Source of the DNA: Pythium myriotylum
Taxonomy: Eukaryota; Oomycota; Peronosporomycetes; Pythiales; Pythiaceae
Length of the DNA stretch: 64,000 nucleotides
Reading direction: 5' to 3'
NCBI GenBank assembly: GCA_023091665.1
Contig: JALJCQ010000011.1
Location: forward strand, 1,612,001 to 1,676,000
The position numbers and the translations under genes are program-made. This document shows positions 12,151-64,000 of the stretch, piece by piece (within the stretch, counting starts at the first letter, position 1; each line of letters starts with the position of its first letter). The notes under the pieces are model-generated. The model had not been told where the DNA came from. It saw only the letters and a program-made list of their open reading frames with translations, and did no database searches.

Positions 12151-12497
12151 ACATTCGCTTTGCTCGACCAACTCAACACACCATCGCATACACAGCGCTT
12201 GCGTCCCAAATACGCTTGGTCCTACCACAACCCACACACGGGACCACGCACAGCGCAGTACACGACCTCGTGCGCCATAAAACGCAACAAAACGGACGTC
12301 TGATCTCGTAGATCGAAGCACACAGTGGTGTATGTGGAGTGACGAGGGTAAGGCCTGTGTGTGGTCGTGGTTGACGGTGAGTGTGTGAGTTTGTGTTGTT
12401 TCTGTGTTTGTAGGTGTAATGTGTAGTTTGGCGTTTTGTGTTTGTGTTGATGCCTGCGCAGGACGTGCAGCCCCTATAGCTCAGTTTCAAGGCGTCT

Positions 12498-12517
12498 GTA
12501 TTAACTATAATTAATAC
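12498..12517 (-). promoter_or_regulatory. 3'-terminal hairpin of the LINE
   Basis: GTATTAA and TTAATAC form a perfect 7-bp stem with a 6-nt loop, 12 nt from the 3' end of the element RNA. The short element has a different sequence folding at the same place and the same 12-nt end. Probable RT recognition site. Confidence 0.65.
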
Positions 12518-12667
12518 GACTATGAGTACTCTAATCTACCTCGTCGATGAATATTATACACTTGACTAATGTGTGACGAGGCTGGGGGCTTCAGTTGTTG
12601 AGTTGGTGGTCGACTTCCGTTGGTCTTGACTGGTTTAGGTACTTGTTTTAACATGTCGGTTCAATAG

Positions 12668-12740
12668 CTGCGGGTAGCTCAGACGTTTAAGAGTGTGGAT
12701 CCGAAGTTACTGGTCGCGGGTTCGAACCCCGGCTCGGACA
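12668..12740 (+). pseudogene. tRNA-like relic in the LINE 3' UTR (antisense to the LINE)
   Basis: Has an A-box-like TAGCTCAGACG (12675) and a perfect B box GGTTCGAACCC (12719-12729). It has a D-arm GCTC/GAGT and a mostly paired T-arm, ending CTCGGAC-A. The acceptor pairs at only about 5 of 7 positions, and the anticodon arm does not close with U33, so it is not a functional tRNA as read. It could be a former target fragment captured by the LINE, or an antisense Pol III promoter. Confidence 0.5.
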
Positions 12741-12882
12741 CTTGCCTTGTGGTCTAAAATTCTGGTGCTTGACTTCGGTCGCGCGGGTCTCCTCTGGCTT
12801 GTGTTCGGGACGAACTCGAACTGCGATTGGTTGAAAACCCTCCACAGCCAAGAAGAAGAAGAAGAATCGGCACGAAATTCTT

Positions 12883-14058
12883 TTATGCCAAAAAGCGAAC
12901 TGCAAACAACCCCATGTTGTTTTGCATGAAGGCACCAAGCGAAGGCGTAGACTGGAGACTTGACAACACAACCTGAAGCGAAGCACGCTGCACATCGTCG
13001 TACACACGTCGAAGACACGCACGCACATGAGCACCCACAGTCGTATACACCACACGCAGTGCTGCAATTGTTGGCATCGGGGACCGCCCGTTGAACAGTC
13101 GCCCATTGCGTTCAGTCCACAACAGGTGAAGCACCACAGCACGGATGACTTGCCACAGGTCTTGGATTTCTTCTGCGTGGTCCTTCCACACGGGAGCAAC
13201 GCGGATGGCTTTACCGAAGACAATGTCGGTCCAGGAGGGTCGAGATGTGAAGAACACCGACATATCACGGAAGATGTCGCGCCATATCACAGTCGGCAGC
13301 ACACACTCGAAGAACAAATGACGCGCCGTCTCCACTGAGTTGCAGCCTTGTCGAACACAGTACACGATGCCGGGATTTGCCACCGTCATGAACGAGAAGC
13401 GTGAGCGAGTCGGTAACAAGCCGTACGCCAAGCGGAACTGGAGGTCTTCGTATATCGGGAGGAGCAACACACGCAGACGCTTGCGGAGCTTGTTGAATCG
13501 GAGGACCACGTCAGTAGGCGCTCGAGGGTCGTGGAAGAACAGCGGATGCGTTCTCGTCGGCTCTGGAGCTTGCCACACCAGGCGGAGCAGTTGGGATCGT
13601 GGAATGCGCGGCACCCAGCACACACGGTCGTTGATCTTCACACCGACTCGCGGATGTTGGTGCTCAGGCGCCGTCGGTAGCACTCCATCGACTGGGACAG
13701 AGCACATTGTGCAGAGACGCCCGAAAACTTGCGTGGCTTCCTCGTGAAGCTTGAGCAGCCACGTGTACTGTCGATACGGGGTGATGGAGACTTGGGTGTA
13801 GTCGACATGTCGCTCAGCAAACTCGATCGCGCTCGGCCACTTGTCGCCTTCACCAGCGAAGTCACGAAGAGATCGCAACTGAAAGACACGGGCAACTTGC
13901 CGACGGAAGCTTCGTTGCGGCTCTGCAATCATGCTGAGAGAACGATGCTGGGACGGCGTTGTGTCGGAACGGCTGGTTGGGAGGAACTGGAAGTTCTTGT
14001 CGCCATGGAACCAGATCGGTTGGTCGAGTGCAGACGCAAGTCGTTCTTCTGGGGGGGG
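12883..14058 (-). CDS. LINE ORF2 C-terminal part, shifted frame (zinc-finger tail)
   Basis: Continues ORF2 after the frameshift at 14051-14058; the frame runs from PPPEERLASAL to the stop at 12883. It holds a C-x4-C-x7-H-x4-C motif (CVRQGC...ARHLFFEC) typical of the zinc-binding region C-terminal to LINE reverse transcriptases (zf-RVT type). An aromatic, Arg-rich region precedes it (FRLAYGLLPTRSRFSF). The open frame extends further upstream to 14454, but that part overlaps the RT frame and is spurious. Together with 13929-17051 it makes an ORF2 of about 1390 codons. Confidence 0.8.
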   Translation of the reverse strand, partial: PPPEERLASALDQPIWFHGDKNFQFLPTSRSDTTPSQHRSLSMIAEPQRSFRRQVARVFQLRSLRDFAGEGDKWPSAIEFAERHVDYTQVSITPYRQYTWLLKLHEEATQVFGRLCTMCSVPVDGVLPTAPEHQHPRVGVKINDRVCWVPRIPRSQLLRLVWQAPEPTRTHPLFFHDPRAPTDVVLRFNKLRKRLRVLLLPIYEDLQFRLAYGLLPTRSRFSFMTVANPGIVYCVRQGCNSVETARHLFFECVLPTVIWRDIFRDMSVFFTSRPSWTDIVFGKAIRVAPVWKDHAEEIQDLWQVIRAVVLHLLWTERNGRLFNGRSPMPTIAALRVVYTTVGAHVRACLRRVYDDVQRASLQVVLSSLQSTPSLGAFMQNNMGLFAVRFLA

Positions 14059-17051
14059 AGGTCGAGCCACGACACCGGCCACTTGATACCGTACCAAGTC
14101 TTCCAGGCCGCACGCCACCACGAAGAGAGCTGCCCCCACTCGATCGAGCCTCGATGCCGCCACGGACTGACGTAGAGAAAGTCGAGTGGCCTCTGCGGGC
14201 CCCACCGCGGAAGACTGATCCGCAGCAGCTCGACTCCTGCTACCGTCCAGTTGCCGGTCGTCGATGTCGAAGCTGCCGTGAACTGAAGCAGGAGCTGCAG
14301 TGACTGTCGCTTGAGCACACCGTCGAGACTCAGTACCTGCAGACCCCCAGACTCGCGCGGCAGGTTGACAAATTCGTTCGAGATCAACTGGACATGCCGA
14401 GCGTCGCGTTCGTAGCGCCGACTCAAGACGAACCGGTGTAGCGCGGCTTGCCACTTCTTCACTCGTCCTGGCGGCACATCAACGTGAGCAGTGTAGTGCC
14501 ACAGACGTGAGAGCACCATGGTCTGGGCGACGAGGAGCCTGCCTTGGAGCGTCCGTGCGCGCCGAAACCACTGCTTGAACCCGTCAAAGAAGCGTCGATC
14601 GAGGTCTTCAACAATCAATTCCGTTGTGCGTCGTTGACCGAACAGGAGACCGAGGAACTTGACCGTGGAGTCTTCATCGAGAACCTGCACACCTGGTATG
14701 CCCGGGCATCGCCGCGTTCGATGCAGCGACATCAGCACACACTTGTTCACGTTGAGCTTGGCGCCGGAGCCTTGACAGTATTCTTCGACCAACCCAAGTT
14801 GCGCCTCGACACCAGCGATAGAGCCCGACAGTAACGTCGAGTCGTCGGCGAAGAAAATACTCGCGACGGTGGCATCCGCTGTCAAGCAGATCCCATGTTC
14901 TTCGTGCTGGCGGAGCAGGTTACCGAGTGGCTCGATAACAAGCAAGAACAGCAGCGCCGACAGCGGATCACCTTGCTTGACTCCGCGCGTTGGGCAGAGC
15001 GGGTCTTGCACGAATCCGTTGATCATGAGATGCGCGTGTGGTCGAGTGTACAGGAGCTTCACCCACCCCGAGAACGCCCCGCCACATCCCATCCGATCGA
15101 GCACCTGAAACATGTAGTTCCAGTTGACGCGGTCGTACGCCTTCTCAAAGTCGAGGAACATGGCGTAGGCTTCCTCGTCGCGCGCGGTGACGAGGTCTTG
15201 CAGGTCACTCACGAAACGAACGTGGTGATGCAGAGAGCGACCACGCACGAAAGCCTTCTGGTCTTGGTGCACAAGCTTGGTCAGGAACAACTGCAGTCGG
15301 AAAGCGAGAACCTTTGACAGTGCCTTCACGTCGACACCCATCAAAGCAATTGGGCGATAGTTGCCTGGGTCAGCTCGGGATCCCTTCTTGTGCAGCAGAC
15401 TGATCGCCGACTGGCGTTGGCACCGAAGAAGCTCGCCTCGCTGAAGTTGGTAGTTGAACACGATCTCCAGGCATTCACCGAACACGTCAGGAGCCACCTG
15501 GTAGAAGGCAGCTGGAAGCCCGTCCATCCCGGGCGCTGACGATGCTCGCATCTTCTTGATTGCACTGGCGAGGTCCGCCGCTGTGATCGGAGCGTTGAGG
15601 ATATTTTGCTCGTCTTCAGACAGTCGGCGGTCGATCGTGTCGAGCATCCGGTCAATCTGGCTCTGCTCAGGCTCTTGGACGACAACACCACCGCGCTCAA
15701 CATCGCCCATGATACCGCCCCAGTGCTGATTGAAGGCAGCCGCGATATCCGCGGGGTTGCTTGATGCTGAGCCATCTTGAAGCCGCACTTCTTCGATGCT
15801 GACTCTCCGCAAGGATCCGTCAAGCGGTCGAAAGAAGTACTTGGATGACTTCTCCGCGTGTTGAGCCTGGAAGTCGAAAGCCGAGTCTTGGTTGTAAAGA
15901 CGCGCCGAGTTGATGCTGTCTTGGTATGCCGTCAGTGCGGTCTGGAACACCGTCTGCGCGCGATCGCTTCGCTCCGACCGGTATGCCGCAGCCGCGTGGG
16001 CAAGTGCCTGACGAGCTTCGGTGGTGGCGGTCTCGCCTTGACGCTTCAGCTTGCGCTGCAGAGCTTGAAGCTGACGACGCATGCCCTTCTTCCACTTGTG
16101 CCACACCTTGCCCGGGTTGGAGGAGCGCCGTAACGCAGCAAGCACAGTTGTCGCTTCGCCTTGGATAGCTTCAACGATATCGGGGAAGTCGAGCATCGCC
16201 GACTGGAAACGCCAGTACCCGTGGCCTTGAGGCTGGCTCATCGCGCGCAACACAACTTGATGTGCGAGATGGTCGCCGGCACCCTTGGGCTCAAAGTACA
16301 AGGAGTCACCGTACAGCGCGGTGCAGAAGTCTTCTGACATGAGGATGTAGTCGAGACGGTTGTGTCGAGGCTGTGGACCAGTGTAGACGCGTTCGTCGGG
16401 ATGGTGGATTCGCCAGGCATCCACGACACCGAGCTGGGCCAACCACGCCACACACGCGTTACCGCCGGTCGTTCCTGTCGCCCTTGGATCCGACGCATCG
16501 ACGAGGGGGTCGAGTGGCGTGTTGAGGTCACCGAGCACCAGGTGAGTCGCATTGTCTTCGAACACTTCGTACGGTAGCGCTTCGAAGAACCCCTTCTTCT
16601 CGAAGTTATCGACTGGCGCGTACACGTTGTGGATGTAGATCGGAGCACCGTTCGCGACGACCCGGACGACCAAGTAGCGGCCTTGAATAGTCAACGAAGA
16701 CTGCTCACAAGCAGACTGAAACCCGGGAAAGTCGGAGCGGAGCACTGTCATGACGCCACCCGATCGTGCAGCAACGGCAACTGGACTGTGCGCGTTGGTG
16801 TCGCTGACGAAGAGGCGGTGTTGAAATCTTGAGTCATGGTGGAATTGGAGCGTTGCACGATGATGCGAGTCGCGCAGCTTGGTCTCTTGGACGCACGAGA
16901 GACTGTTCTTGATGAGCTGGTTCTCGATCAACAGGTGGCCGTTCTTCTTGATCCCGTTGGTGTTCACCGTCAAAAGACTGATGTTCTCCCACGAGACCTC
17001 GGCCGCGTCCGCCTCGACCGCTTTAGCAGTCGAGGCAGAGCGGTCCGGCAC
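13929..17051 (-). CDS. LINE ORF2: APE-type endonuclease and reverse transcriptase
   Basis: Nicks target DNA and reverse-transcribes the element RNA there (target-primed reverse transcription). Endonuclease, residues ~25-265: TVNTNG, QETK (E56), NVYAP (Y144), GDLN (D175, N177), RLDYIL (D234) and AGDH (D260, H261). RT, ~500-810: SAPGMDG, NYRPIAL, FLDFEKAYD (motif A), GVKQGDPLS (motif B), FFADDS (motif C) and KFLGLLFG; catalytic Asp residues are present. The first codon used here is GTG (17049-17051), 29 nt inside ORF1 and in its +1 frame. The first ATG lies at about codon 101, inside the endonuclease, so ORF2 needs frameshifting, reinitiation or a non-ATG start. The last ~40 residues after LDLPP are out of frame, past the G8 run. 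Confidence 0.93.
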   Translation of the reverse strand: MPDRSASTAKAVEADAAEVSWENISLLTVNTNGIKKNGHLLIENQLIKNSLSCVQETKLRDSHHRATLQFHHDSRFQHRLFVSDTNAHSPVAVAARSGGVMTVLRSDFPGFQSACEQSSLTIQGRYLVVRVVANGAPIYIHNVYAPVDNFEKKGFFEALPYEVFEDNATHLVLGDLNTPLDPLVDASDPRATGTTGGNACVAWLAQLGVVDAWRIHHPDERVYTGPQPRHNRLDYILMSEDFCTALYGDSLYFEPKGAGDHLAHQVVLRAMSQPQGHGYWRFQSAMLDFPDIVEAIQGEATTVLAALRRSSNPGKVWHKWKKGMRRQLQALQRKLKRQGETATTEARQALAHAAAAYRSERSDRAQTVFQTALTAYQDSINSARLYNQDSAFDFQAQHAEKSSKYFFRPLDGSLRRVSIEEVRLQDGSASSNPADIAAAFNQHWGGIMGDVERGGVVVQEPEQSQIDRMLDTIDRRLSEDEQNILNAPITAADLASAIKKMRASSAPGMDGLPAAFYQVAPDVFGECLEIVFNYQLQRGELLRCQRQSAISLLHKKGSRADPGNYRPIALMGVDVKALSKVLAFRLQLFLTKLVHQDQKAFVRGRSLHHHVRFVSDLQDLVTARDEEAYAMFLDFEKAYDRVNWNYMFQVLDRMGCGGAFSGWVKLLYTRPHAHLMINGFVQDPLCPTRGVKQGDPLSALLFLLVIEPLGNLLRQHEEHGICLTADATVASIFFADDSTLLSGSIAGVEAQLGLVEEYCQGSGAKLNVNKCVLMSLHRTRRCPGIPGVQVLDEDSTVKFLGLLFGQRRTTELIVEDLDRRFFDGFKQWFRRARTLQGRLLVAQTMVLSRLWHYTAHVDVPPGRVKKWQAALHRFVLSRRYERDARHVQLISNEFVNLPRESGGLQVLSLDGVLKRQSLQLLLQFTAASTSTTGNWTVAGVELLRISLPRWGPQRPLDFLYVSPWRHRGSIEWGQLSSWWRAAWKTWYGIKWPVSWLDLPPQKNDLRLHSTNRSGSMATRTSSSSQPAVPTQRRPSIVLSA

Positions 17052-19740
17052 CTAGTGTTGCGACGCCGTTGACAGCCGTAAGCTGGAGAACCGCTTCGTC
17101 GTCGGAGAAGTACAAGCCGCACGTGCGAAGATATTCGAGGTCGTCGAGAAGCTCGCCTTGCCACTGGATCTTCTCCCACACGGCAAAGATCTGTGCGCCC
17201 AAGTCGGAGCGCAGCAGTGCCAACAACACGTTGGGGTGGAGCAAACGACCGTTGAGTGCTGGAATCCACCCGACTGGAGCTCCGGTAAGGCGCTGGATCC
17301 ACATGTCGCTCTGGAAGATCTGCGGCGCCGTGCACATGAGCATCAACTCGAACAACGAGAGCGCGCACGTGGCTCGCAAGAGCGCCGACATCCGCTCATC
17401 ACGATACCACCGTCCCGTCATCTTGAAGATGTCATTGCGATCCTTCGGCAGCTTCTCACCGTAGTGCGCAGCCCACTTGTGCGCGAAGGTCGTACACGAG
17501 TTTGGATCAGTCGCGCTCAACACACGATTGATCATGTGGAGCTGTGCGAGTTCCTTGACGTTGCCGCTGAGGTCACTCATCTCGCCGAGCAGCACAGAGT
17601 TGAACGCGAGCGGAGACTTCCCACCGGCAAGATGGCCGATCGTGTCCGGGTTGGCCGTGTTGCGGAGAGTCTTCCGAAGTGATTCCGCACGAACGTCCGC
17701 TGCAGCGATATGGTTCGACTGGAGCTGGAGGTCGGCGGTGGGCTCGGTCGTCTCGAGTTCGGCGAGGATCTCTTGGATTGACGTCGGTTCCTTCGTCTTC
17801 ATGACCAGAGTGTGGTGCTTGGTCAAGAAGTGACTCGACTCCTTGCTGGTCTTGATCGTGTCGGGACCCTTGACCTTGCGAGGCACGACCTGGAACCGCG
17901 GCAGGCTCGACTCGTTGAGCGCCGCATTGCAGCAGTCGAGTTCGAACTCGATGGAGTTCAACACTTCGAAGTAGTTGCTTGTCGCGATGCCTTGCACGGG
18001 CTTCGGTCGCGCCTTCTGTAACATGTCGGCAAAGTCGTCGGCGTAACGCGAGCGCTTGCCCTTGGACTTGGTCGATTTGGTTCCGTTTTCCGGACGATCT
18101 GCGTTGGACGCGGACAGACCGAGCGGCGGTGGCGGCGGCGGCAGAGACTTGGCTCCAGGCTGCGGACTACCCGGAGGCGTCAACAGCGATCCCGCGTGCG
18201 TACCGACCGAGATGACGCTTGCAGAGTCTTGCGACTTGGACTCCGCTTGCGAGACACCGTTCTTCACCGCGTCTGCGTACGAAGTCGGAGCAGCCGGCTC
18301 GGACGGTTGCACTGGTGCTGGCGGAGTAGGCTTGTTGATCTTGTCCAAGTCCAAAGCGTGTGGCGACAACTGACCGAAACCACGTCGCTGGGACGGGAAC
18401 GCGGCGTCGCGCGCCAAAGCTGGGTACATGCGGCTGCCGAAGATGACTTGGTCGCACGTGAAGCCTTGCACACACAGCGCTCTTGGGCACGTCGCACTTC
18501 GAAAGTAGACGCGCCACGTTGCTGTCGTCATTCCGGACGCGAGGTTGACGTCGCGGAACGTGTCGTAGATCGGCTCGCTGCCGATGTCGAAGAACGCGCG
18601 CAGAAGACCTTCGTTGTCGAAGTTGCTGTCGACGCTCGAGATGTCGATGTAGAAGCGATCGGCGAGGACGTCGAAGTCTTGGAACATGTACTTGCCACCG
18701 AGGATCTTGACTTCCTGACGCGCGAGGCGTTCGCACGCAGCACGTGACTTGACCTTGACGCGGATTTCTCCGCCACGACCCTTGGAGATCTGGCCGAGTT
18801 CTTGAAGCTTGATCTGCTCGGTGACCACGGGGTTCCCGTTGTCCTTGAGAAAAGACGCCATGATCTTGTTGATGCCGGTACGCTCGAACGCGCGACCAGT
18901 GTCGATGGTCATGACGTAACGAGCGCGCGGGAGCTCGTACGGGCGCGCTTGTTCAACTGACGTGAAGAGCGAGGCCCAGTCGCCACCGTTCTCGTACAGC
19001 GCGTCAATCGCTTCGATATCCGCAGCACACGGTCGAGGCAGCACCACACGACTGGTCGCCGAGACGGGAGTTCTGTCACGGCGAATCTCGGTTGGACGGC
19101 GTAGAAGAGCACCAAGCGAAGGCGTCGCACCTGCCGCACTGGCAGGCGGTTGCTGAGCATCCGGAATCGGATCCGGGGTCGAATCAGTCGTAGTCGAGTC
19201 TTCAACAGTTGATTCGTCGGGGCTTGAGGCGAGACTGAGCTGGAGCGAGGTCGCCGCCATCATCAAGTCGTCGTCGTCATCGTCGCCACCGGAGACAGCA
19301 GTAGTCCCAGTGTTCGCGGGCGAGTCGGTCGAACTGGAAAGCGCAACGGAGATCTCGACTCCAGACGCCACCGGAGCGGAGCCTGTCACGAGCACCGTCA
19401 TACCGGCACCGACATCCACGATGCGGGCGGTAGAGGCGGGTCCGTCGGCGGTTGAAGGAGCGTCGGCGTCGTCGACCGCGGAGGTGGTGGTCGTGCCGGA
19501 GCTGACTGGGGCTTGCGCATTCACTGACTTCGAAGTCACGTGAGATACGGGCGCGGGCGTCGCAGGGTCGTCGGCAGTCGCACTGGCACCATCCGGGCCA
19601 GATGGTGGCTCACAATGGGTGAGGCTTCCCGAATCTTGTGCAGAGACGGGACGGAGCAGCTGCGCGGGAGGGTTCTCACCCACAAAGTCGAGGTCGGAGG
19701 GAGATGGGCGGGCCGAGTCGATCTGGTTCGCTGGCTTCAT
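17023..19740 (-). CDS. LINE ORF1 protein (905 aa), copy A
   Basis: Presumed nucleic-acid-binding partner of ORF2 in the RNP. ATG at 19738-19740. Residues 1-240 are Ser/Thr/Ala/Pro-rich with an acidic run (DDDDDD, ~153-158). Residues ~270-450 look like an alpha/beta region (YVMTIDTGRAFERTG; IRVKVKSRAACERLA; FYIDISSV; WRVYFRS), possibly one or two RRM-like folds. A proline run follows at ~534-539, and then a basic KSKGKRSRY at ~558-566, a possible nuclear signal. Residues 585-905 are globular and unrecognised. No CCHC knuckle is seen. It is intact and nearly identical to the copy at 60978-63695. The RRM suggestion is inference from pattern. Confidence 0.85.
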   Translation of the reverse strand: MKPANQIDSARPSPSDLDFVGENPPAQLLRPVSAQDSGSLTHCEPPSGPDGASATADDPATPAPVSHVTSKSVNAQAPVSSGTTTTSAVDDADAPSTADGPASTARIVDVGAGMTVLVTGSAPVASGVEISVALSSSTDSPANTGTTAVSGGDDDDDDLMMAATSLQLSLASSPDESTVEDSTTTDSTPDPIPDAQQPPASAAGATPSLGALLRRPTEIRRDRTPVSATSRVVLPRPCAADIEAIDALYENGGDWASLFTSVEQARPYELPRARYVMTIDTGRAFERTGINKIMASFLKDNGNPVVTEQIKLQELGQISKGRGGEIRVKVKSRAACERLARQEVKILGGKYMFQDFDVLADRFYIDISSVDSNFDNEGLLRAFFDIGSEPIYDTFRDVNLASGMTTATWRVYFRSATCPRALCVQGFTCDQVIFGSRMYPALARDAAFPSQRRGFGQLSPHALDLDKINKPTPPAPVQPSEPAAPTSYADAVKNGVSQAESKSQDSASVISVGTHAGSLLTPPGSPQPGAKSLPPPPPPLGLSASNADRPENGTKSTKSKGKRSRYADDFADMLQKARPKPVQGIATSNYFEVLNSIEFELDCCNAALNESSLPRFQVVPRKVKGPDTIKTSKESSHFLTKHHTLVMKTKEPTSIQEILAELETTEPTADLQLQSNHIAAADVRAESLRKTLRNTANPDTIGHLAGGKSPLAFNSVLLGEMSDLSGNVKELAQLHMINRVLSATDPNSCTTFAHKWAAHYGEKLPKDRNDIFKMTGRWYRDERMSALLRATCALSLFELMLMCTAPQIFQSDMWIQRLTGAPVGWIPALNGRLLHPNVLLALLRSDLGAQIFAVWEKIQWQGELLDDLEYLRTCGLYFSDDEAVLQLTAVNGVATLGAGPLCLDC

Positions 19741-19835
19741 CTTCGTTCGACGGGAAGGCTGGGAGGCTGGTTGGCTGGTTACTTCGGCTGTTTGCTTGGA
19801 TCGACTTGTGCTCGACGAGGCAAAGCGAGAAGTGA
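19741..19835 (-). other. 5' UTR of LINE copy A
   Basis: About 95 bp, starting TCACTTCTCG and abutting the tRNA-Thr stub head to head. No promoter motif recognised. Confidence 0.7.
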
Positions 19836-19857
19836 GCCCCTATAGCTCAGTTTCAGT
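19836..19857 (+). pseudogene. tRNA-Thr 5' stub plus 6-nt extra duplication
   Basis: The right target duplication of LINE A (19836-19851), followed by an extra TTCAGT (19852-19857) before the next short element. At other junctions the stub passes straight into TTCAAGG. Confidence 0.75.
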
Positions 19858-20620
19858 TTCAAGGCGTCTGTATTGCTGCACTAGCATTTACGACTGACTT
19901 CTAACTGCTCGCTAATCCCGTGCGGGTTCTATGTTGCTAAGGTTCGGTTGAGTCTCGTGGTTGGCTGGTCGGTTTGTGCTGAGAGGATGAATCCTTGCGT
20001 CATGGTTCGTTGGGTTGTTGAGGTTGTTGTTCTGTTGTCGTTGAAGCTGGGTACTGGGTTAACTTGACCTTCATTTGCTGGTTTGCTGGTATGTTGATGC
20101 TGGGTGAGTTGAGTGTTGGTTGGGTTGAAGCTGGGTTGGCTGAATGCCGGTTGGGTTGATGCTGGGTTGCTTGAATGCTGGTTGGGTTGAGGTTGGTGTC
20201 GGTGAGTGCTGGTTGGGTTGAGGTTGGTGTCGGTGAGTGTTGGTTACCCAACGGTCTCGTGAGTGAAGGTTGGTGGCTGGGTGCCGTGAGTGTTGGTCAC
20301 AGCGTGGGTTGATCAGCGGTGGGTTGATATTAGAGTCGACCGGGTGGCCGAGCTCTGGCGCGCGCTCTCCATGTGGTGAATGTCGGCTCTCCCGATGAAG
20401 CCGAAGGAAGCACGCATGGGATGCCGACTGGTCGGCGCGGTGGCGGCAGCGTCCCGATGCCAAGCTTCTTGCGCTTGGTCTTGGCTCTCGCAGCACCCTT
20501 GGTCATGGCGACTGGGTGTGGAGAGGGTCGGGGGTGATGGGCTGGCAGCTGGGCTGGGTGCTTGGACTGGACACTTCTGGACTTGGTCACTTGAGGGGTA
20601 GCGAGCAAATTGCGAAGTGA
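19858..20620 (-). mobile_element. Short element, full length (763 bp), upstream of unit 6
   Basis: Sits between the LINE A right stub and intact tRNA-Thr 20621, so it inserted after LINE A if each insertion hits the intact gene. Confidence 0.85.
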
Positions 20621-20692
20621 GCCCCTATAGCTCAGTGGTAGAGCACTCGCTTCGTAAGCGAAAGGTCGGTGGTTCGATCCCGCTTGGGGGCA
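20621..20692 (+). tRNA. tRNA-Thr (CGT), unit 6
   Basis: Intact; full-length short element, then LINE A, lie upstream. Confidence 0.95.
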
Positions 20693-22655: not shown

Positions 22656-22889
22656 TTCAAGGCGTCTGTATTGCTGCACTAGCATTTACGACTGACTTCT
22701 AACTGCTCGCTAATCCCGTGCGGGTTTTATGTTGCTAAGGTTCGGTTGAGTCTCGTGGTTGGCTGGTCGGTTTGTGCTGAGAGGATGAATCCTTGCGTCA
22801 TGGTTCGTTGGGTTGTTGAGGTGGTTGTTCTGTTGTCGTTGAAGCTGGGTACTGGGTTAACTTGACCTTCATTTGCTGGTTTGCTGGTA
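22656..22889 (-). mobile_element. Short element, 5'-truncated (234 bp), unit 6
   Basis: Keeps only the 3' 234 bp and ends at GCTGGTA next to intact tRNA-Thr 22890. Stub GCCCCTATAGCTCAGT at 22640-22655. 5' truncation with a full duplication is the usual sign of incomplete target-primed reverse transcription. Confidence 0.85.
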
Positions 22890-23939: not shown

Positions 23940-24020
23940 GACAGCTTGGCCGAGTGGTTAAGGCGCTAGCCTGTTAAGTTAGTGGGGCAACCCGCGTGAG
24001 TTCGAATCTCACAGCTGTCG
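23940..24020 (+). tRNA. tRNA-Ser body with Asn anticodon (GTT), unit 7
   Basis: Identical to the other tRNA-Ser genes except C to T at 23974, the middle anticodon base, turning GCT into GTT (Asn codons AAC/AAT). The long variable arm and discriminator G, which guide seryl-tRNA synthetase, are unchanged. If expressed it would be expected to carry serine to Asn codons. It could also be a silent copy or a sequence error. Confidence 0.85.
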
Positions 24021-25180: not shown

Positions 25181-25943
25181 TTCAAGGCGTCTGTATTGCT
25201 GCACTAGCATTTACGACTGACTTCTAACTGCTCGCTAATCCCGTGCGGGTTCTATGTTGCTAAGGTTCGGTTGAGTCTCGTGGTTGGCTGGTCGGTTTGT
25301 GCTGAGAGGATGAATCCTTGCGTCATGGTTCGTTGGGTTGTTGAGGTTGTTGTTCTGTTGTCGTTGAAGCTGGGTACTGGGTTAACTTGACCTTCATTTG
25401 CTGGTTTGCTGGTATGTTGATGCTGGGTGAGTTGAGTGTTGGTTGGGTTGAAGCTGGGTTGGCTGAATGCCGGTTGGGTTGATGCTGGGTTGCTTGAATG
25501 CTGGTTGGGTTGAGGTTGGTGTCGGTGAGTGCTGGTTGGGTTGAGGTTGGTGTCGGTGAGTGTTGGTTACCCAACGGTCTCGTGAGTGAAGGTTGGTGGC
25601 TGGGTGCCGTGAGTGTTGGTCACGGCGTGGGTTGATCAGCGGTGGGTTGATATTAGAGTCGACCGGGTGGCCGAGCTCTGGCGCGCGCTCTCCATGTGGT
25701 GAATGTCGGCTCTCCCGATGAAGCCGAAGGAAGCACGCATGGGATGCCGACTGGTCGGCGCGGTGGCGGTAGCGTCCCGATGCCAAGCTTCTTGCGCTTG
25801 GTCTTGGCTCTCGCAGCACCCTTGGTCATGGCGACTGGGTGTGGAGAGGGTCGGGGGTGATGGGCTGGCAGCTGGGCTGGGTGCTTGGACTGGACACTTC
25901 TGGACTTGGTCACTTGAGGGGTAGCGAGCAAATTGCGAAGTGA
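25181..25943 (-). mobile_element. Short element, full length (763 bp), unit 7 (younger of pair)
   Basis: Between stub 25165-25180 and intact tRNA-Thr 25944. Confidence 0.85.
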
Positions 25944-60811: not shown

Positions 60812-60883
60812 TGAGGGATGAGGGGATCGAACCCCCGACCGCTGGGACTGGAATCCAGCGCTCTACCACTGAGCTAACCCCCC
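60812..60883 (-). tRNA. tRNA-Trp (CCA), unit 21, with LINE copy B at its 5' end
   Basis: Complete gene. LINE copy B begins at the base next to tRNA nucleotide 1, so the usual 5' flank (ACATTCGC...) is replaced by the LINE 5' end. The internal promoter is intact. Confidence 0.85.
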
Positions 60884-60977
60884 CACTTCTCGTTTTGCCT
60901 CGTCGAGCACAAGTCGATCCAAGCAAACAGCCGAAGTAACCAGCCAACCAGCCTCCCAGCCTTCCCGTCGAACGAAG
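60884..60977 (+). other. 5' UTR of LINE copy B
   Basis: About 94 bp matching copy A with a few substitutions; no promoter motif recognised. Confidence 0.7.
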
Positions 60978-63695
60978 ATGAAGCCAGCGAACCAGATCGA
61001 CTCGGCTCGCCCATCCCCCTCCGACCTCGACTTTGTGGGTGAGAACCCTCCCGCGCAGCTGCTCCGTCCCGTCTCTGCACAAGATTCGGGAAGTCTCACG
61101 CATTGTGAGCCACCATCTGGTCTGGATGGTGCCAGTAACACTGCCGACGACTCTGCGACGCCTGCGCCCGTATCTCACGTGACTTCGAAGTCAGTGAATG
61201 CGCAAGCCCCAGTCAGCTCCGGCACGACGGCTACCTCCGCGGTCGACGACGCCGACGCTCCTTCAACCGCCGACGGACCCGCCTCTACCGCCCGCATCGT
61301 GGATGTCGGTGCCGGTATGACGGTGCTCGTGACAGGCTCCGCTCCGGTGGCGTCTGGTGTCGAGATCTCCGTTGCGCTTTCCAGTTCGACCGACTCGCCC
61401 GCGAACACTGGGACTACTGCTGTCTCCGGTGGCGACGGTGACGACGACGACTTGATGATGGCGGCGACCTCGCTCCAGCTCAGTCTCGCCTCAAGCCCCG
61501 ACGAATCAACTGTTGAAGACTCGACTACGACTGATTCGACCCCGGATCCGATTCCGGATGCTCAGCAACCGCCTGCCAGTGCGGCAGGTGCGACGCCTTC
61601 GCTTGGTGCTCTTCTACGCCGTCCAACCGAGATTCGCCGTGACAGAACTCCCGTCTCGGCGACCAGTCGTGTGGTGCTGCCTCGACCGTGTGCTGCGGAT
61701 ATCGAAGCGATTGACGCGCTGTACGAGAACGGTGGCGACTGGGCCTCGCTCTTCACGTCAGTTGAACAAGCGCGCCCGTACGAGCTCCCGCGCGCTCGTT
61801 ACGTGATGACCATCGACACTGGTCGCGCGTTCGAGCGTACCGGCATCAACAAGATCATGGCGTCTTTTCTCAAGGACAACGGGAACCCCGTGGTCACCGA
61901 GCAGATCAAGCTTCAAGAACTCGGCCAGATCTCCAAGGGTCGTGGCGGAGAAATCCGCGTCAAGGTCAAGTCACGTGCTGCGTGCGAACGCCTTGCGCGT
62001 CAGGAAGTCAAGATCCTCGGTGGCAAGTACATGTTCCAAGACTTCGACGTCCTCGCCGATCGCTTCTACATCGACATCTCGAGCGTCGACAGCAACTTCG
62101 ACAACGAAGGTCTTCTGCGCGCGTTCTTCGACATCGGCAGCGAGCCGATTTACGACACGTTCCGCGACGTCAACCTCGCGTCCGGAATGACGACAGCAAC
62201 GTGGCGCGTCTACTTTCGAAGTGCGACGTGCCCACGAGCGCTGTGTGTGCAAGGCTTCACGTGCGACCAAGTCATCTTCGGCAACCGCATGTACCCAGCT
62301 TTGGCGCGCGACGCCGCGTTCCCGTCCCAGCGACGTGGTTTCGGTCAGGTGTCGCCACACGCTTTGGACTTGGACAAGATCAACCAGCCTACTCCGCCAG
62401 CACCAGTGCAACCGTCCGAGCCGGCTGCTCCGACTTCGTACGCAGACGCGGTGAAGAACGGTGTCTCGCAAGCGGAGTCCAAGTCGCAAGACTCTGCAAG
62501 CGTCATCTCGGTCGGTACGCACGCGGGATCGCTGTTGACGCCTCCGGGTAGTCCGCAGCCTGGAGCCAAGTCTCTGCCGCCGCCGCCACCGCCGCTCGGT
62601 CTGTCCGCGTCCAACGCAGATCGTCCGGAAAACGGAACCAAATCGACCAAGTCCAAGGGCAAGCGCTCGCGTTACGCCGACGACTTTGCCGACATGTTAC
62701 AGAAGGCGCGACCGAAGCCCGTGCAAGGCATCGCGACAAGCAACTACTTCGAAGTGTTGAACTCCATCGAGTTCGAACTCGACTGCTGCAATGCGGCGCT
62801 CAACGAGTCGAGCCTGCCGCGGTTCCAGGTCGTGCCTCGCAAGGTCAAGGGTCCCGACACGATCAAGACCAGCAAGGAGTCGAGTCACTTCTTGACCAAG
62901 CACCACACTCTGGTCATGAAGACGAAGGAACCGACGTCAATCCAAGAGATCCTCGCCGAACTCGAGACGACCGAGCCCACCGCCGACCTCCAGCTCCAGT
63001 CGAACCATATCGCTGCAGCGGACGTTCGTGCGGAATCACTTCGGAAGACTCTCCGCAACACGGCCAACCCGGACACGATCGGCCATCTTGCAGGTGGGAA
63101 GTCTCCGCTCGCGTTCAACTCCGTGCTGCTCGGTGAGATGAGTGACCTCAGCGGCAACGTCAAGGAACTCGCACAGCTCCACATGATCAATCGTGTGTTG
63201 AGCGCGACTGATCCAAACTCGTGTACGACCTTCGCGCACAAGTGGGCTGCGCACTACGGTGAGAAGCTGCCGAAGGATCGCAATGACATCTTCAAGATGA
63301 CGGGACGGTGGTATCGTGATGAGCGGATGTCGGCGCTCTTGCGAGCCACGTGCGCGCTCTCGTTGTTCGAGTTGATGCTCATGTGCACGGCGCCGCAGAT
63401 CTTCCAGAGCGACATGTGGATCCACCGCCTCACCGGAGCTCCAGTCGGGTGGATTCCAGCACTCAACGGTCGTTTGCTCCACCCCAACGTGCTGTTGGCA
63501 CTGCTGCGCTCCGACTTGGGCGCGCAGATCTTCGCCGTGTGGGAGAAGATCCAGTGGCAAGGCGAGCTTCTCGACGACCTCGAGTATCTTCGCACGTGCG
63601 GCTTGTACTTCTCCGACGACGAAGCGGTTCTCCAGCTCACGTCTGTCAACGGTGTCGCGGCCCTAGGTGCCGGACCGCTCTGCCTCAACTGCTAA
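60978..63695 (+). CDS. LINE ORF1 protein (905 aa), copy B
   Basis: Same length and layout as copy A ORF1, with only about a dozen residue changes: P/L, A/N and P/S near residues 49-61, D/G in the acidic run, S/N in IFGSRMYP, K/Q before PTPPAP, Q/H in WIQRL, and A/S and D/N near the C-terminus. Stop TAA at 63693-63695. Intact, so this copy may still make functional ORF1 protein. Confidence 0.87.
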   Translation: MKPANQIDSARPSPSDLDFVGENPPAQLLRPVSAQDSGSLTHCEPPSGLDGASNTADDSATPAPVSHVTSKSVNAQAPVSSGTTATSAVDDADAPSTADGPASTARIVDVGAGMTVLVTGSAPVASGVEISVALSSSTDSPANTGTTAVSGGDGDDDDLMMAATSLQLSLASSPDESTVEDSTTTDSTPDPIPDAQQPPASAAGATPSLGALLRRPTEIRRDRTPVSATSRVVLPRPCAADIEAIDALYENGGDWASLFTSVEQARPYELPRARYVMTIDTGRAFERTGINKIMASFLKDNGNPVVTEQIKLQELGQISKGRGGEIRVKVKSRAACERLARQEVKILGGKYMFQDFDVLADRFYIDISSVDSNFDNEGLLRAFFDIGSEPIYDTFRDVNLASGMTTATWRVYFRSATCPRALCVQGFTCDQVIFGNRMYPALARDAAFPSQRRGFGQVSPHALDLDKINQPTPPAPVQPSEPAAPTSYADAVKNGVSQAESKSQDSASVISVGTHAGSLLTPPGSPQPGAKSLPPPPPPLGLSASNADRPENGTKSTKSKGKRSRYADDFADMLQKARPKPVQGIATSNYFEVLNSIEFELDCCNAALNESSLPRFQVVPRKVKGPDTIKTSKESSHFLTKHHTLVMKTKEPTSIQEILAELETTEPTADLQLQSNHIAAADVRAESLRKTLRNTANPDTIGHLAGGKSPLAFNSVLLGEMSDLSGNVKELAQLHMINRVLSATDPNSCTTFAHKWAAHYGEKLPKDRNDIFKMTGRWYRDERMSALLRATCALSLFELMLMCTAPQIFQSDMWIHRLTGAPVGWIPALNGRLLHPNVLLALLRSDLGAQIFAVWEKIQWQGELLDDLEYLRTCGLYFSDDEAVLQLTSVNGVAALGAGPLCLNC

Positions 63696-64000
63696 AGCGG
63701 TCGAGGCGGACGCGGCCGAGGTCTCGTGGGAGAACATCAGTCTGTTGACGGTGAACACCAACGGGATCAAGAAGAACGGCCCCCTGTTGATCGAGAACCA
63801 GCTCATCAAGAACAGTCTCTCGTGCGTCCAAGAGACCAAGCTGCGCGACTCGCATCATCTTGCAACGCTCCAATTCCACCATGACTCCAGATTTCAACAC
63901 CGCCTCTTCGTCAGCGACACCAACGCGCACAGTCAAGTTGCCGTTGCTGCACGATCGGGTGGCGTCATGACCGTGCTCCGCTCCGACTTCCCCGGCTTTC
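63667..64000 (+). CDS. LINE ORF2, N-terminal part, copy B (partial)
   Basis: Begins at the GTG matching copy A, overlapping ORF1 by 29 nt in the +1 frame, and stays open for 111 codons to the window end. Endonuclease motifs TVNTNG and QETK are present. Small changes from copy A include H to P at GHLL and P to Q in the AHSP region. The RT and tail are outside the window, so whether this copy lacks the frameshift of copy A is unknown. Confidence 0.85.
   Translation, partial: MPDRSASTAKAVEADAAEVSWENISLLTVNTNGIKKNGPLLIENQLIKNSLSCVQETKLRDSHHLATLQFHHDSRFQHRLFVSDTNAHSQVAVAARSGGVMTVLRSDFPGF

Follow-up and report, generated by a model that had tools for sequence, protein, structure and literature searches.

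Site-specific long interspersed nuclear elements (LINEs) usually damage some members of a large gene family. The dictyostelid elements TRE5 and TRE3, L1-type non-long-terminal-repeat (non-LTR) retrotransposons with an apurinic/apyrimidinic endonuclease (APE), insert at tRNA genes, TRE5 40-54 bp upstream and TRE3 downstream, and no gene is cut or needs restoration as their targeting is outlined in PMC5911963. NeSL-1_TV (tRNA-Pro), LIN15_SM (tRNA-Arg) and LIN25_SM (tRNA-Glu) are presented in PMC4640811 as tRNA-gene-specific non-LTR retrotransposons related to NeSL, of the restriction-like endonuclease group, with one tRNA species each. Dada DNA transposons of fish and Perkinsus insert in the tRNA A box (nucleotides 8-13) by means of a DDE transposase, with a 6-7 bp duplication, a tRNA of its own for each family, and tRNA genes described as disrupted in the accounts drawn on here (PMC8869645, PMC3706591). 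The oomycete LINE Utopia occupies a fixed point of U2 snRNA genes, which are multicopy and occur also in arrays; its summary in PMC4640811 gives it a restriction-like endonuclease group membership, an RNase H and disrupted U2 targets. The subject of this report is a LINE with two copies, A and B, in a 64-kb window (64,000 nucleotides, the whole stretch of DNA analysed) of Pythium myriotylum contig JALJCQ010000011.1, which very probably is an L1-like APE LINE that inserts by target-primed reverse transcription (TPRT) in tRNA genes of many isoacceptors, its target duplication leaving a complete tRNA and a stub.

Like the element, TRE5 and TRE3 are L1-type APE LINEs directed at tRNA genes (PMC5911963), but 35 of its 36 copies read at both junctions lie inside the A box; the statement of an earlier sequence-only reading that Dictyostelium TREs insert at a distance from the tRNA agrees with the same source. 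Unlike the NeSL-related families, with which it was compared by endonuclease group and tRNA species, the present LINE has an APE domain and takes 13 isoacceptors as one family. With Utopia, likewise an oomycete LINE, it shares a fixed insertion point in a small-RNA gene of many copies (PMC4640811). In the open-access literature, a scope that leaves Repbase entries and subscription papers outside, no description was found of an APE-type, isoacceptor-blind LINE that uses A14 and restores tRNAs, and the element is apparently a so far undescribed form of tRNA-targeted LINE, although tRNA-targeted LINEs as such are known.

Classification of the element

The second open reading frame (ORF2) has Pfam matches to RVT_1 (E 2.1e-33) and Exo_endo_phos (E 2.2e-5), combining a reverse transcriptase and an APE-type endonuclease in one frame as in L1-like APE-type LINEs. 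The solved structures closest to it are chains of L1 ORF2p (E about 5e-57, across endonuclease and reverse transcriptase), compared with 7e-23 to 5e-21 for the best R2-type chains (across the reverse transcriptase). ORF2 also contains the motifs GDLNT, GDHLAH and FADD, which fit these two domains. The APE-type domain speaks against a restriction-like endonuclease of the NeSL/R2 type, a domain at which no search was aimed. By sequence, then, the element is an L1-like APE-type non-LTR retrotransposon, its likeness having been measured by similarity to solved L1 ORF2p.

The insertions carry the hallmarks of TPRT: duplications of 13-16 bp, a constant 3' end, 0-2 extra 5' bases, and truncated partner elements (234, 34 and about 150 bp long). 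The variable 5' bases and the occasional extra 3' tail repeats fit the expectation for this mechanism.

Genome-wide insertion sites

A search of the genome (58.7 Mb, 55 contigs) with ORF2 gave at least 45 matches, at least 39 of them near full length, both counts being lower bounds. Both ends were fetched for 38 near-full-length copies besides copy A; 35 were readable on both sides, making 36 with copy A. All 36 are antisense to the tRNA, and 35 are inserted in an A box, 34 of these in tRNA genes (copy A included) and one (C18:620555) in the tRNA-like block of another LINE's 3' untranslated region (UTR), by position that of C18:627712. The sole copy outside an A box (C43:31294) lies at a cut 3 bp upstream of tRNA-Val(AAC). 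A complete tRNA stands at the 5' end of the element in 34 of 36 cases, directly in 33 and 16 bp off for tRNA-Val (tRNA-Tyr was counted complete with its intron allowed); the exceptions are the copy in the tRNA-like block and copy A, whose tRNA took a second hit.

The targets are Ala-AGC (6 copies), Cys (5), Lys-CTT (5), Trp (4), Asn (3), Arg-ACG (2), Thr-AGT (2), Phe (2) and, with one copy each, Lys-TTT, Tyr, Ile-TAT, Ile-AAT and Val, to which copy A adds Thr-CGT, so that 13 isoacceptors have A-box insertions. The sequence-only reading had proposed a LINE that inserts inside the A box, with tRNA-Thr as its target, and had named scattered targets, or duplications not starting at tRNA nucleotide 1, as findings in aligned genomic copies that would count against it. 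The A box stands as the site and the targets are not scattered (35 of 36, far more than chance would give), whereas a Thr-specific element is ruled out by the 13 isoacceptors. Six shorter ORF2 matches correspond to five places, four of which were fetched (L039-L042; C13:1571507 was left out), and all four have one end at a tRNA: Met-CAT, Pro-AGG, Glu (in the A box, GTCTA^GT, as read by eye) and Thr-TGT.

Nick position and target duplication

Copy A is bordered directly on both sides by GCCCCTATAGCTCAGT, which equals nucleotides 1-16 of the tRNA-Thr(CGT) genes of the window (12470-12485 and 19836-19851), a perfect 16-bp duplication as first described. The typical target is GCTCA followed by GT, and the element end on the tRNA strand reads GTTTCAAGG; at most targets the boundary is hidden because the GT of the target also matches the element end. 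The tRNA-Arg target (GGCCCA^ATGG) and the site upstream of tRNA-Val (GGTCA^AGTG) are without GT, and the stubs of both run on into GTTTCAAGG; therefore the first nick falls after A14 and the element RNA ends ...CUUGAAAC. The nick had been placed within the A box between T16 and G17: the A box was right, but these two targets rule out T16 and move the position to A14^G15. The duplication of copy A is accordingly best read as nucleotides 1-14, its last two bases (GT) being also the element end.

Counted up to A14, the duplication spans 14 bp in 23 copies, 15 bp in 10, 16 bp in two and 13 bp in one. Its upstream edge lies at most 2 nucleotides from tRNA nucleotide 1 in the 32 A-box cases assigned by ARAGORN, which bears out the earlier suggestion that it begins at the 5' boundary of the gene. 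The stub at the 3' end of the element is 13-16 bp long, usually nucleotides 1-14, and some element ends carry extra tail repeats. The junctions read thus show a 13-16 bp duplication by which the element comes to lie between a complete tRNA and a short stub; they also show repeated hits on some tRNAs. This arrangement, proposed from copy A, is found in 34 of 36 copies genome-wide but not in copy A itself, where the complete tRNA lies one insert further on.

The steps may be pictured as follows. A ribonucleoprotein would be delivered to tRNA genes, probably by the RNA polymerase III (Pol III) transcription machinery; the endonuclease would nick the sense strand of the tRNA after A14 of the A box, usually at GCTCA^GT; the freed 3' end would prime cDNA synthesis on the element RNA; and the other strand would be cut about 14 bp upstream, at tRNA nucleotide 1. 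The strand and the order of the nicks are inferred from TPRT. The same site is used, presumably through the LINE proteins, by short non-autonomous elements that carry the LINE 3' tail.

A different origin is suggested by the oomycete Peronospora effusa, whose tRNA clusters are classed as SINE-like (short interspersed nuclear element-like) in the relevant portion of PMC11540230: the tRNA and the element together might form mobile units that carry the tRNA along. This is most improbable here, since the element is antisense to the tRNA, the stub on the other flank adjoins the tRNA's own leader, the same element body stands beside many different tRNAs, the joined flanks give an uninterrupted tRNA (for tRNA-Tyr, the tRNA side alone), and a U6 snRNA gene is also part of the array unit. 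Insertion of a LINE into resident tRNA genes may account for some of the variation in inserts among oomycete tRNA arrays, arrays that have been called SINE-like.

Partner elements and serial insertion

The genome has 217 copies of the terminal bases of the LINE (on the tRNA strand, GTTTCAAGGCGTCTGTATT). A pattern that overlooks at least one variant (L126) showed 43 of them to run on into LINE sequence. The six bases before the 217 tails are AGCTCA (161), GGCTCA (40), GTTTCA (5, an extra repeat), GGCCCA (2), GTATCA (2), one each of TGCTCA, GGTTCA, TGGTCA and TCCTAA and, by subtraction and from the loci read, AGCGCA, AGTCTA and ATTTCA. Context was read for 44 distinct tail-plus-flank sequences, assigned as tRNA or not by ARAGORN or by eye, and was non-tRNA in one.

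The window has 24 tail junctions, all in tRNA-Thr and none in its 21 tRNA-Ser or 21 U6 genes (copy B, in tRNA-Trp, is not among the 24, its tail falling beyond the window). These junctions belong to copy A and 23 short elements, seven of 763-794 bp, 14 of 234 bp and two of 34 bp; short element and LINE share only the last 17 bp at a meaningful score. Serial insertion is seen in two cases. At one locus (L127, G000:C4:2510900-2519500) a single complete tRNA-Thr(TGT) is preceded by six short elements arranged head to tail, with GCCTCTGTGGCTCA stubs between them, and copy A with its 769-bp neighbour is the second case of repeated hits on one tRNA.

Among the 23 short inserts of the window, 14 share one 234-bp truncated form and recur at array spacing, and the stacked elements of L127 show repeated lengths, as would be expected if true insertions were few and most copies had spread as tRNA array units underwent unequal crossing-over or gene conversion. 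The near-identical 234-bp forms were probably multiplied along with the array, and the equal lengths suggest that some of the L127 elements arose by local duplication. As a general explanation such spread is very unlikely: it is refuted for the LINE as a whole, whose 36 copies fall into 25 junction types (by target, duplication length and extra bases), occur in 13 isoacceptors on many contigs and include identical ORF2s in different tRNA genes, and it is likely for part of the short inserts. Over 30 copies, ORF2 identity is 96.1-100% (mean 98.9%), and ORF2s identical over about 3 kb are found in different isoacceptors on different contigs (L018 in Thr-AGT and L019 in Phe; L021 in Cys and L022 in Ala), with further identical sets in L025 (Tyr), L026 (Ala) and L027 (Asn) and in L030 (Ile), L031 (Cys) and L032 (Lys). 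Therefore one recent lineage uses the A boxes of many tRNAs.

Atypical sites and the guidance of insertion

Several results weigh against a LINE that enters tRNA genes by an APE endonuclease and spares them. The Pfam endonuclease match is barely over the cut-off (24.7 versus 24.5 bits). Three of the 38 fetched copies are without both junctions, C18:627712 and C12:867420 being readable on the 5' side alone, where they adjoin a tRNA, and C15:2991 on neither side. Array duplication may multiply insertions, hence 36 copies do not equal 36 events. A short insert of about 150 bp (C7:577427; L119, G000:C7:575300-577950) with the duplication GGCCCCGGGTTCA lies in the B box of tRNA-Ala(TGC) and splits the gene; the expectation that insertion is close to harmless fails for this partner element. 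That a target can be used again is borne out by the serial hits. At C12:1745327 a 33-bp LINE tail stands at a non-tRNA site, GCTCA^GAGG, with the duplication ACACTGGAGCTGCTCA; therefore sequence preference can act without a tRNA context. The Ser-type A box, TGGCCGA^GTGG (TGGCCGAGTGG; 193 genome matches, not all of them tRNA genes), has no junction, and therefore local sequence matters too.

These last two results also favour the view that DNA sequence alone picks the target, the endonuclease reading a long A-box motif (about TAGCTCA^GTNGG) with no role for Pol III, as does the presence of GCTCA before 202 of 217 exact 3' tails. We regard this as possible but doubtful, because the sites at tRNA-Val, tRNA-Ala(CGC), the tRNA-Ala B box and antisense tRNA-Glu are without the long motif, yet lie at tRNA genes. 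The tRNA-Ala(CGC) site (C23:1272145, duplication TGGGCGAGGTATCA) is 7 bp upstream of the tRNA, identified by eye, although a TAGCTCAGATGG A box stood beside the site actually used; C23:1274468, read on one side, has the same leader side. C16:35116 is on the antisense strand of tRNA-Glu, as read by eye, and is cut after TAA, whereas the other atypical sites are cut after CA. The word GCTCAG, moreover, has 36,937 matches in the genome (62,104 for the reversed control word), and is therefore so common that the six-base motif alone cannot explain the near-exclusive location of the insertions read in tRNA genes. Local sequence and tRNA-gene context both seem to count, and the atypical sites in or near tRNA genes suggest that the Pol III machinery is perhaps a guide of insertion.

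The tRNA-like block of the LINE 3' UTR

An antisense tRNA-like block is present in the 3' UTR of 29 of 30 near-full-length loci (L009-L038; absent from L016), in two versions about 75% alike; the UTR next to the block also differs between the versions, more strongly towards ORF2 than on the far side. Among the shorter loci, L040 has a 73.5% match and L039 a 25-base piece; L041 and L042 have none. The block was considered as a true tRNA gene, and none was found by Rfam (E up to 1) or ARAGORN; it is therefore called tRNA-like only. The block may act as a target for the LINE's own insertion, or as an antisense promoter for Pol III.

Gene sparing may itself have evolved, a quite possible if less than probable reading of the whole pattern. 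The spacing of the nicks would equal the stretch between A14 and the 5' end found in any tRNA, the terminal base of the element could supply the usual first G, Pol III factors would bring the element to the tRNA repertoire, and its own tRNA-like block with A- and B-box motifs would receive nested insertions and might also serve as an antisense Pol III promoter. In this way tRNA genes would become renewable, stackable sockets. With a duplication that restores the gene, the target pool is barely consumed and can be used again. The element offers a natural system for asking how an APE endonuclease combines sequence selectivity with guidance to Pol III genes. As a LINE whose added DNA leaves tRNA genes complete, it is also of interest for safe-harbour insertion.

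Features of the window

Table 1. Features of the two LINE copies and neighbouring inserts in the window
Feature	Position	Strand	Remarks
tRNA-Thr stub at 3' end of copy A	12470..12485	+	nucleotides 1-14 at 12470-12483; GT at 12484-12485 common to element end
LINE copy A, 7350 bp, antisense to tRNA-Thr	12486..19835	-	5' end TCACTTCTCG..., 3' end ...AATACAGACGCCTTGAA(AC)
tRNA-like block, antisense in LINE 3' UTR	12671..12742	+	A-box-like and B-box-like motifs
Copy A ORF2, APE-type endonuclease and reverse transcriptase, 1040 amino acids	13929..17051	-	start at 17051
Copy A ORF1, 905 amino acids	17023..19740	-	
Second copy of tRNA-Thr 5' 16-mer, at 5' end of copy A	19836..19851	+	
769-bp non-autonomous element, second insert at the tRNA of copy A	19852..20620	-	LINE 3' tail and one extra tail repeat
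Complete tRNA-Thr(CGT) past both inserts	20621..20692	+	
234-bp 5'-truncated non-autonomous copy	22656..22889	-	same 16-mer on both flanks; one of 14 such in the window
LINE copy B in tRNA-Trp(CCA; minus strand, 60812-60883)	60884..64000	+	extends past the window; ORF2 at G000:C11:1675667-1678672
Copy B ORF1, 905 amino acids	60978..63695	+	

The ORF2 frame of copy A is called interrupted because this frame is 1388 amino acids long in 31 of the other 38 near-full-length copies. At E 0.001 Pfam gave no match for ORF1 of copy A. For the two proteins, named relatives come from Globisporangium, Pythium, Lagenidium, Peronospora and Aphanomyces; the ORF2 relatives in Globisporangium are 58-66% identical and the relative from Peronospora matthiolae only 53%, and a scan of viral contigs gave no relative of ORF2. 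The 5' end of the LINE (12152-12190 compared with 19798-19836) looks by eye like the leader of a native tRNA-Trp; it may mimic a tRNA leader, or the likeness may be chance.

The window is part of a tRNA array with a unit of tRNA-Thr(CGT), tRNA-Ser(GCT), U6 snRNA (identity confirmed by Rfam in one unit) and, on the opposite strand, tRNA-Trp(CCA), with 21 of each gene counted over positions 1-61000; trimeric Thr-CGT/Trp-CCA/Ser-GCT arrays are described for Phytophthora infestans in the pertinent section of PMC9584435. A long GA repeat lies between the Thr and Ser genes in those array units that were read. The gene at 23940-24020 has the tRNA-Ser body of the array but the anticodon GTT instead of GCT, and is labelled tRNA-Asn by ARAGORN; a real gene of this kind, were its product to carry serine, would cause misreading of Asn codons, but the GTT may be a sequencing error. 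The 763-bp non-autonomous element was not accepted as a Pol III SINE (weak evidence: no A box within one mismatch, and B-box matches with two mismatches only). The copy at 25181-25943 has a short sense-strand frame starting MTKGAARAKTKRKK (by eye), which is perhaps the start of the ORF1 of another LINE.

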